Shown: piece after piece, positions 9,745 to 52,094 of the stretch | Layout: the number at the start of each line of letters is the position of its first letter | How positions within the stretch are numbered: the first letter of the stretch is position 1 | DNA from: Nitrospinota bacterium | GTDB taxonomy: Bacteria; Nitrospirota; Nitrospiria; Nitrospirales; UBA8639 | DNA: 54,446 nt | Direction: 5' to 3' | NCBI GenBank assembly: GCA_022572725.1 | Contig: JACZVJ010000006.1 | Coordinates: 1 to 54,446, forward strand | The notes under the pieces: generated by a model | Seen by the model: the letters and a program-made list of their open reading frames with translations, nothing else | Told to the model about the DNA's origin: nothing | Databases searched by the model: none | Translations under genes and position numbers: made by a program

Positions 9745-9956
9745 CTAGCAGGTTGTTGAAAAACCCTTTTGGCACAGGGGCAACACAGCACTCTAGGAGA
9801 TCAGGGACGGCATCAGAACAGCTCGCAGGATGGTCAAAAAGGCCGTCCAGCGCGGCCGCAGCAAGCGAGGAGGCGAAGGCGTACTCTGTTCGGTACGTCG
9901 AGAGCCTCCAAGCGCCGCGAGAACAAAGCTGGCGGACTTTTTCAACATCCTGCTAG
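9745..9956. repeat. 212-bp palindromic repeat with CTAGCAGG ends (MITE-like)
   Basis: The ends are inverted repeats: CTAGCAGGTTGTTGAAAAA on the left and TTTTTCAACATCCTGCTAG on the right, 18 of 19 positions matching after reverse complementing. A small internal inverted repeat (GTAC around 9891-9898) lies in the middle. It contains no transposase and only short chance reading frames. A partial copy of the left end is at 40197-40217 in this window. I remember very similar elements (same ends, same 'GCAGCAAGCGAGGAGGCGA' interior) in Nitrospira genomes; that is memory, not a search. Confidence 0.75.
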
Positions 9957-17678: not shown

Positions 17679-17780
17679 CGGGGCCAGGTGATCCTGCGGC
17701 ACCCAGACTCGCCCGCTTACCGTTGCTTCCTTCCGGACCTGGCGGGATTCACAGGATTCTGTTGCACAGGGCCCAGCCCC
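17679..17780 (-). ncRNA. ffs: Signal recognition particle RNA (4.5S, small bacterial type)
   Basis: On the minus strand the sequence CCAGGTCCGGAAGGAAGCAA (reverse complement of about 17722-17742) is the universal SRP RNA apical loop that binds Ffh. The flanks pair to a long hairpin, with GGGGC near 17776-17780 facing GCCCC near 17680-17684, giving about 100 nt as in the short bacterial form. With Ffh it targets nascent membrane proteins. It lies between tRNA-Ser with its tail element and dnaX, all on the same strand. Ends are good to a few bases. Confidence 0.93.
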
Positions 17781-17879: not shown

Positions 17880-18133
17880 TGGCGGAGAGGGTGGGCATTC
17901 GAAGTCGCGCTCCAGACTTCGCCCGCGCTCCCGCTCGGGGGCCTGCCCCGCAGGGTGCAAGAGCACCCTGCTTTCCCAGGGGCTCCGCCCCTAGGACGGC
18001 CCCAACTACGGGGCCTATGACCCCTCGAAGGGGGAACACCCCCTTCAGGACCCCCGTTCGAATCCCACCCTCCACATTCCAGTCTGTGATTTCTGATCTG
18101 GTTCCAACCCAAGTCGTATTGCCACTGAAGTTG
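17880..18133 (-). repeat. tRNA-tail element behind tRNA-Ser(GGA)
   Basis: Read on the minus strand from the tRNA end: a 61-nt spacer (18133-18073); an inverted copy of the tRNA's own T-loop, T-stem and start of the acceptor 3' strand (18072-18056, 17 of 17 bases); a core of 152 nt (18055-17904); and a direct copy of the tRNA 3' end including CCA (17903-17880, one extra G). The core holds perfect hairpins: GAAGGGGG-TGTT-CCCCCTTC (18027-18046), an 18-nt palindrome (17998-18015), AGGGGCGGAGCCCCT (17978-17992), a 9-bp stem (17950-17971) and CGAAGTC/GACTTCG (17900-17921). The same plan recurs at 51883-52094. Reading frames across it are chance products of the GC-rich palindromes. Confidence 0.75.
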
Positions 18134-18223
<90 letters not shown>

Positions 18224-19924: not shown

Positions 19925-20007
19925 GCGAGAGTGGCGGAACTGGCAGACGCGCGAGACTTAGGATCTCGTGGGAGACCGTGGGGGTTCAAGTCCCCCCTCT
20001 CGCACCA
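19925..20007 (+). tRNA. tRNA-Leu(TAG)
   Basis: An 83-nt class II tRNA with encoded CCA. Acceptor GCGAGAG pairs with CTCTCGC, anticodon stem CGAGA/TCTCG encloses CTTAGGA (anticodon TAG), and the T-arm is GGGGG-TTCAAGT-CCCCC. It sits 59 bases before tig on the same strand and has no tail element of the kind seen behind the other two tRNAs. Confidence 0.95.
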
Positions 20008-51694: not shown

Positions 51695-51797
51695 TCAAGG
51701 TCATTGAATAAAATTGAATTATAGAAGGATTCTACCGGATGGCTTGTTCATTGACAATGGTTTTCACCCCTACCTATAATTTCATACTTCCCATCCT

Positions 51798-51882
51798 GCC
51801 GAAGTGGTGGAATTGGTAGACACGCACGTTTGAGGGGCGTGTGGGGAAACCCTTGCGGGTTCGAGTCCCGCCTTCGGCACCA
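51798..51882 (+). tRNA. tRNA-Leu(GAG)
   Basis: An 85-nt class II tRNA with encoded CCA. Acceptor GCCGAAG pairs with CTTCGGC, the anticodon loop is TTGAGGG (GAG), the variable arm is long, and the T-arm is GCGGG-TTCGAGT-CCCGC. It is followed by a tail element that copies part of it twice. Confidence 0.95.
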
Positions 51883-52094
51883 TTTGCTTAACAGCTGAGA
51901 ACGAAATCCATCACCAGAAGCAAACCCATCAACAAAAAGAATAAAGGCGGGACTCGAACTGGGGGTTCTGAAGGGGGAATACCCCCTTCATGGGGTGACC
52001 GAAACGAAGTGAAGGCACGAGGGGGCTTGGCCCCTTAGTGGGAGCATGAGCTGGGCTTCGGCTCATGCGACTTCGAGTCCCGCCTTCGGCACCA
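51883..52094 (+). repeat. tRNA-tail element behind tRNA-Leu(GAG)
   Basis: From the tRNA end: a 61-nt spacer (51883-51943); an inverted copy AAGGCGGGACTCGAAC (51944-51959), exactly complementary to this tRNA's T-loop/T-stem and the first acceptor bases; a 112-nt core (51960-52071) with hairpins GAAGGGGG-AATA-CCCCCTTC (51970-51989) and GCATGAGC/GCTCATGC (52044-52068); and a direct copy of the tRNA 3' end TTCGAGTCCCGCC... to CCA (52072-52094, 23 of 23 bases). Both the tRNA and the copy are followed by TTAAC within about ten bases. The same plan is seen at 17880-18133. Confidence 0.8.

Follow-up and report, generated by a model that had tools for sequence, protein, structure and literature searches.

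The closest described counterparts are the RtT repeats, which have so far come mainly from enterobacterial and Pasteurellaceae tRNA operons and for which, in E. coli, a role in the stringent response has been proposed. In E. coli K-12 tyrT, an inverted GGGGAAGGAT stands 59 nt after the tRNA-Tyr and is followed by a hairpin core and a direct AATCCTTCCCCCACCACCA, the whole arrangement occurring three times; the Rfam RtT model (RF00391) is closed by the same stem of inverted arm and tRNA tail. The first-pass annotation of the locus described below had held that an inverted copy in addition to the direct repeat is not expected, which was mistaken, since the tyrT repeats carry one at a like distance. 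A fourth RtT match of E. coli K-12 lies upstream of tyrV, the spans behind tyrV in E. coli genomes fit zero to three RtT units, and in one E. coli genome the site is exactly empty, only 34 nt separating the two tRNA-Tyr genes. Locus L260, 401-571 (E. coli NZ_CM188076.1) belongs to this copy-number variation behind tyrV. RtT has been described as an RNA released from the transcripts of tRNA operons, was found beside the Asn and Lys tRNAs in Actinobacillus and is visible on northern blots in another species (PMC4986893), and rtT-like sequences have been tied to BIMEs in E. coli (PMC2965389).

Two tRNA-tail units in the window

The window, i.e., the whole analysed stretch of 54,446 nucleotides from a Nitrospirales genome (GCA_022572725.1, contig JACZVJ010000006.1), carries one unit behind tRNA-Leu(GAG) and a second one, overlooked by the first-pass annotation, behind tRNA-Ser(GGA) on the minus strand. 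The features of the first unit (copy 1) are as follows.

51751..51780, plus strand: promoter-like TTGACA-18-TATAAT, 5' of tRNA-Leu, with 12 of 12 consensus bases; a presumed promoter
51798..51882, plus strand: tRNA-Leu(GAG) with encoded CCA, host of copy 1 (ARAGORN, Rfam)
51883..52094, plus strand: unit copy 1, 212 nt, from just past the tRNA CCA through that of the 3' copy; ends set by empty, filled and decayed sites in relatives
51883..51943, plus strand: 61-nt spacer of copy 1, from the sequence; most Ser and Leu units are spaced alike
51944..51959, plus strand: inverted arm AAGGCGGGACTCGAAC of copy 1, 16 nt, from the sequence; the fold pairs it with the 3' copy
51960..52071, plus strand: structured core, 112 nt, with compensatory pairs; covariance model R1 matches 51939-52094 with 160 bits
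51969..51990, plus strand: hairpin 1, GAAGGGGG..CCCCCTTC (fold, covariation)
52016..52040, plus strand: hairpin 3, CACGAGGGGGC..GCCCCTTAGTG (fold, covariation)
52044..52068, plus strand: hairpin 4, GCATGAGC..GCTCATGC, immediately 5' of the T-loop copy (fold, covariation)
52072..52094, plus strand: direct copy TTCGAGTCCCGCCTTCGGCACCA of the tRNA-Leu 3' end, T-loop to CCA, 23/23 identical

The arm AAGGCGGGACTCGAAC, placed 61 nt past the CCA, is the perfect reverse complement of the T-loop, T-stem and acceptor start of tRNA-Leu(GAG), and TTCGAGTCCCGCCTTCGGCACCA at 52072-52094 duplicates all 23 nt of 51860-51882, so that the layout first read from the letters, with inverted copy, core and CCA-ended direct copy, proved exact in its lengths and distances. 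Only one unit occupies 51883-52094, i.e., there is no tandem at this place, and the scan for a sense-strand terminator between tRNA-Leu and the end of copy 1 found none. The fold energy of copy 1 is -82.4 kcal/mol versus -58.8 for shuffled sequences (z = -5.5), with the arms closing the fold.

The second unit and its surroundings comprise the following features.

18134..18223, minus strand: tRNA-Ser(GGA), host of copy 2
17880..18133, minus strand: unit copy 2, with an additional hairpin block within the core; R1 matches 17880-18076 with 91.8 bits, the rest being set from the sequence
18056..18073, minus strand: inverted arm of copy 2, GGAGGGTGGGATTCGAAC (sequence)
17880..17903, minus strand: direct copy of the tRNA-Ser 3' end, TTCGAATgCCCACCCTCTCCGCCA, with one added G past the T-loop (sequence)
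17679..17778, minus strand: SRP (4.5S) RNA gene (Rfam RF00169), next after copy 2, the conserved neighbour for the empty-site comparison

The additional hairpin block of copy 2 begins CCTAGGGGCGGAGCCCCTGGGAAAGCAGGGTGC, and a similar block is found in units L003, L042 and L048. As an internal negative, tRNA-Leu(TAG) at 19925-20007 of the window has no unit behind it, an ORF beginning about 60 nt downstream. Elsewhere in the window's own genome a unit with a near-exact copy of the Gly tail stands behind tRNA-Gly(GCC) (L003, 1383-1457 onward), and a degenerate unit stands behind tRNA-Ser(CGA) (L246, 1660-1747 onward). The window also holds, at 9746-9956, a palindromic element with the ends CCTAGCAGGTTGTTGAAAAA / TTTTTCAACATCCTGCTAGG, which are of the type of the dispersed palindromic elements. 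Such palindromes were met away from tRNAs in L243 (G000:C51), L245 (G000:C21), L227, L233, L240 and L244 (G330); their ends resemble CTAGCAGGCTGCTGAAAAA / TTTTTCAGCACCCTGCTAG, they have hairpin 1 and the inner hairpins in common with the tRNA units, and several of them start at TAG, possibly a stop codon.

Distribution, boundaries and fit to the host tRNA

Core-only BLAST matched 43 genomes among 98 relatives, and at all 30 of the 30 best loci a same-strand tRNA was found just 5' of the core, the hosts being Leu and Ser only, apart from one Gly case in the window's own genome. The 30-unit alignment, whose structure displays 11 compensatory pairs, served to build the covariance model R1, with which units were found in 134 of 236 Nitrospirales genomes, these being mostly metagenome assemblies. 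A same-strand tRNA lies directly upstream in 97 of the 99 R1 units examined, and the initial expectation that the cores would sit behind tRNA genes is thus borne out by both searches. The host tRNAs of the 97 units (Ser 73, Leu 13, Gly 8, Thr 2 and Ala 1) over-sample Ser and Leu because the model was built from units of these two. Weaker matches occur in other Nitrospirota families, several of them also behind tRNAs (in G286 behind Arg(CCG), for example, and in G352 behind Ala(CGC)). Taken together, these searches demonstrate a widespread family of the nitrite-oxidising Nitrospirales with conserved secondary structure and with the orientation of its host tRNA.

Two early readings were given up in the course of this survey, namely the restriction to class II tRNAs suggested by the first matches, once Gly, Thr and Ala hosts turned up, and the strict lineage specificity of the core, with two core types in one genome (G074). 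The core pattern also matched sequences of Nocardiopsis, Actinomadura, Betaproteobacteria and other groups; these matches, having neither a nearby tRNA nor a convincing model score, were set aside as chance. The core tree has three starred branches and shows 11 label changes where 4 would be the minimum, and it is too weak for counting switches.

The arms follow the tRNA next to which they stand. In Ser units the longest inverted match to the neighbouring tRNA typically spans 15 nt, Leu units being weaker (median 8 nt), and the longest direct match is typically 16-25 nt for Ser, Gly and Thr; chance is excluded as the source of these matches, because shuffled sequences give only 5.8 nt (inverted) and 5.4 nt (direct), with a maximum of 11. 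Over 14 positions, the 3' copy agrees with its own tRNA at 13.1 (Ser), 13.3 (Leu) and 14.0 (Gly), versus 7.7-9.2, 7.5-8.9 and 7.9-10.1, respectively, with other tRNA families, while the 3' copies of the Thr units also resemble Ala tRNA (12.0 of 14). The correspondence extends to variants within Ser, where the tails CCCTCC, CCCGCC or CCCCCTCC are mirrored by the same variant in the adjoining unit. The prediction that the arms of other copies would match their own neighbouring tRNA has therefore held, with the inverted arms of Leu units fitting less; in L005 and L007, the 3' copy tracked the tRNA and the inverted arm did not. In the class II (Ser, Leu) units the inverted arm spans the T-loop to the acceptor and the model usually starts at least about 55 nt past the CCA, whereas in the Gly, Thr and Ala units the arm spans the variable loop to the T-loop and is usually near the CCA. 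Where all host tRNAs show G ahead of the T-loop, the class II copies have C (77 of 78 readable cases), and they often carry an extra base. Among 57 Ser units, 17 from two families have a GTGGAGC-like motif near position 28 of their spacer, which is 55-60 nt long (e.g., L012, L027, L117, L119).

The ends of the unit could be read at one conserved locus. In most genomes examined, the SRP RNA gene comes next after tRNA-Ser(GGA), and the interval between the two holds no unit, a single one, two, or other genes. Within one genus, the empty site of G086 has CTCTCCGCCA followed by aacagagctagctcgacc, and the decayed unit of G084 ends in CTCTCCGCCA with the same aacagagctagctcgacc next. The filled site compared with these is that of G066; the empty G119 against the filled G080 and G081 gave boundaries concordant with those of G086 and G084. 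Tandem units are present in L039, L040, L124, L125 and L137. At the level of sequence comparison, it is established that the unit extends exactly from the CCA of the tRNA to the CCA of the copy, and that at the Ser(GGA)/SRP locus it behaves as a single block, whether found filled, missing, doubled or decayed. Within a genus, the spacers of different Ser loci are up to 90% identical and those of different Leu loci up to 80% (shuffled 52%), and the top spacer pairs from different isoacceptor loci are 74-90% identical, from which it follows that whole units have probably spread between loci. The proposal that the structure is the footprint of a mobile element gains support from the precise empty sites, the tandem copies and the transfer between tRNA loci.

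In some arrays genes lie between the units, two of which were assigned by Pfam to Methyltransf_7 (SAM carboxyl methyltransferase) and DUF5677. Genes inserted downstream of the tRNA-Ser, ahead of later units or of the SRP RNA gene, were seen in L036, L164, L137, L187, L171 and L178; others, of VOC-like, YCII-like and GIY-YIG-like appearance, were recognised by eye only.

Folding and rival explanations

In 112 units (110 distinct), 96.3% of the alignment cells were paired, versus 85% in shuffled and 45-56% in slid controls, and changes on both sides occur in 26 of 37 base pairs; the alignment was fitted to the structure, and the controls were nonetheless far lower. On the tRNA-sense strand G-U exceeds A-C by 56:16 in the internal helices and by 87:21 in the arms, which points to folding as RNA, all these counts being of sequences and not of independent events. 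The run TTTTT is absent from 95 of 97 units, the final part of the spacer included.

The reading we favour, and hold with somewhat more belief than doubt, is that of an RtT-like tRNA-tail unit, a mobile or passenger part of tRNA operons that is read through and whose arm folds away the duplicated tail. The unit would be transcribed from the tRNA promoter as the 3' trailer of the pre-tRNA, and the inverted arm would pair with the downstream tail copy to form a closed stem whose 3' strand ends in CCA, which would keep the extra tail from competing with the real tRNA. The tRNA-processing enzymes may then cut at both CCAs and release the unit, and at the DNA level the repeated tail might permit loss, amplification and copying to other tRNA genes via recombination, mostly as a passenger. 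The strong conservation of the core sequence could mean a host function, which would count against this reading. Against the folding away of the tail stands the predicted pairing: for 95 of 97 units the real tRNA is the stronger partner of the inverted arm, its advantage over the 3' copy exceeding 1 kcal/mol (in a Ser example, -33.7 versus -27.2 kcal/mol); the joint minimum-energy fold of tRNA and unit agrees and prefers the arm on the real T-arm.

Because the arm and the joint fold prefer the real tRNA, a switch of tRNA maturation stays a live rival, albeit a rather unlikely one. The stronger pairing with the real tRNA likewise keeps alive the putative decoy role that the first-pass annotation had named beside the switch. 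In such a cis-acting quality check, the arm would capture the T-arm of a badly folded tRNA while the 3' copy can pair with the 5' acceptor strand, and with a well-folded tRNA the arm would pair with the 3' copy instead. The stronger arm-to-tRNA pairing, the alternative pairing displayed by the joint fold and the C for G before the T-loop in the class II copies, often with an extra base, all agree with it; however, in copy 1 the arm of 16 nt faces two identical partners (-29.0 for either), folding during transcription favours the completed tRNA, and an essential role is opposed by patchy presence at one locus in related species, by decayed copies and by unit-free genomes. The distribution bears likewise on a small RNA useful to the host, released from the transcript and acting in trans, the kind of role in the stringent response that has been suggested for E. 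coli RtT. Its conserved core with compensatory changes, and the finding of RtT as an RNA freed from transcripts of tRNA operons, with northern-blot detection in another species (PMC4986893), are what such an RNA would lead one to expect; the units are, however, missing in many close relatives and differ in host tRNAs and copy numbers, and we regard this explanation as quite improbable.

The DNA-level alternatives are weaker still. Very little credence is given to an attC-like cassette, in which a folded single strand provides a double-stranded recombination site, the tRNA takes the part of attI and units, sometimes with cargo genes, are inserted by a tyrosine recombinase, although the exact units, the tandem arrays, the unpaired extra base of the arm and the genes between some units would suit it; the 23-nt repeated block has no GTTRRRY core, the G-U bias points to RNA, and by generic Phage_integrase counts just two tyrosine recombinases are present in G010, which has seven units, as also in the unit-free G018. 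An ordinary footprint of a genomic island or phage, with tRNA-Leu as the attachment site, has the direct repeat of the tRNA 3' end in its favour, the phage matches found being all weak, such as the P4 attP core. It is extremely improbable, since the 212-nt unit belongs to a structured and conserved family that has an inverted arm, many host tRNAs, exact boundaries and no integrase, and as the whole story it is refuted by the conserved core.

Taken more broadly, the units might represent a phylum-wide class of tRNA-fitted RNAs whose core moves between tRNAs, whose arms are re-copied or re-selected to fit the new host, with the inverted arm tuned to hold the real tRNA more tightly than its own tail copy, and which check the folding of the pre-tRNA, a generalisation we consider rather unlikely. 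The filled and empty Ser(GGA)/SRP loci of sister species are natural replicate experiments, and the role and spread of RtT, an old question, are thereby open to direct test.

Comparison with known systems

With tRNA-integrated islands and satellites having P4-type att sites, the units have in common the direct repeat of the tRNA 3' end and the insertion just past the tRNA, and they differ from these in being 212 nt long without integrase or gene cargo (no integrase gene lies within copy 1, 212 nt being too short) and in having an inverted copy and a conserved structured core. In the phage and plasmid collections only weak matches to tRNA ends were found, such as the P4 attP core already mentioned, and the exact core pattern had no match in viral contigs. 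The likeness to repeats of the BIME/REP type lies in the core block, which also occurs in dispersed palindromes away from tRNAs; in contrast to these, the arms of the units are fitted to tRNAs, and unit-rich genomes can be without Y1/RAYT transposases. Thus, Y1_Tnp is absent from G010, G021, G002, G098, G110, G100 and G099, and the window's own genome has three matches. Integron attC sites and their cassettes are similar in folded arms, exact units, tandem arrays and occasional genes in between, but the units lack the GTTRRRY core, the generic Phage_integrase counts point to no matching integrase, and the arms are tRNA-specific. A dedicated mobilising enzyme was sought through the counts of Phage_integrase, Y1_Tnp, RVT_1 and IS110 Transposase_20 in unit-rich versus unit-free genomes and was rejected, as no correlation appeared; Y1 transposase, reverse transcriptase and IS110 can be missing from genomes rich in units.

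No Rfam family matches the unit, and a search of the literature found no report on such units in Nitrospira. For RtT (RF00391) in particular, there was no match in the window, either at the gathering threshold (45 bits) or at E <= 5, and none at the gathering threshold in seven related loci, so that the unit, being below the threshold, is classed as an RtT-like variant. The core sequence of RtT is unlike the Nitrospirales core, R1 giving the three tandem RtT units just 9-12 bits, and the hosts differ, RtT adjoining tRNA-Tyr in E. coli and the Nitrospirales units mainly Ser and Leu, also Gly, Thr and Ala. Since neither R1 nor Rfam scoring supports homology of the cores, the resemblance is one of architecture, consisting of a tRNA in the same orientation directly 5' (97 of 99 Nitrospirales units), a spacer of about 60 nt, an inverted arm closing a stem with the CCA-ended copy of the tRNA 3' end, and tandem units with copy change by exact units. 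By this structural analogy, the Nitrospirales unit is RtT-like, built as the RtT of E. coli tyrT is. That this architecture recurs in another phylum, fitted there to tRNAs of five families and accompanied by exact empty sites and by compensatory pairs, suggests that tRNA-tail elements form a general class.
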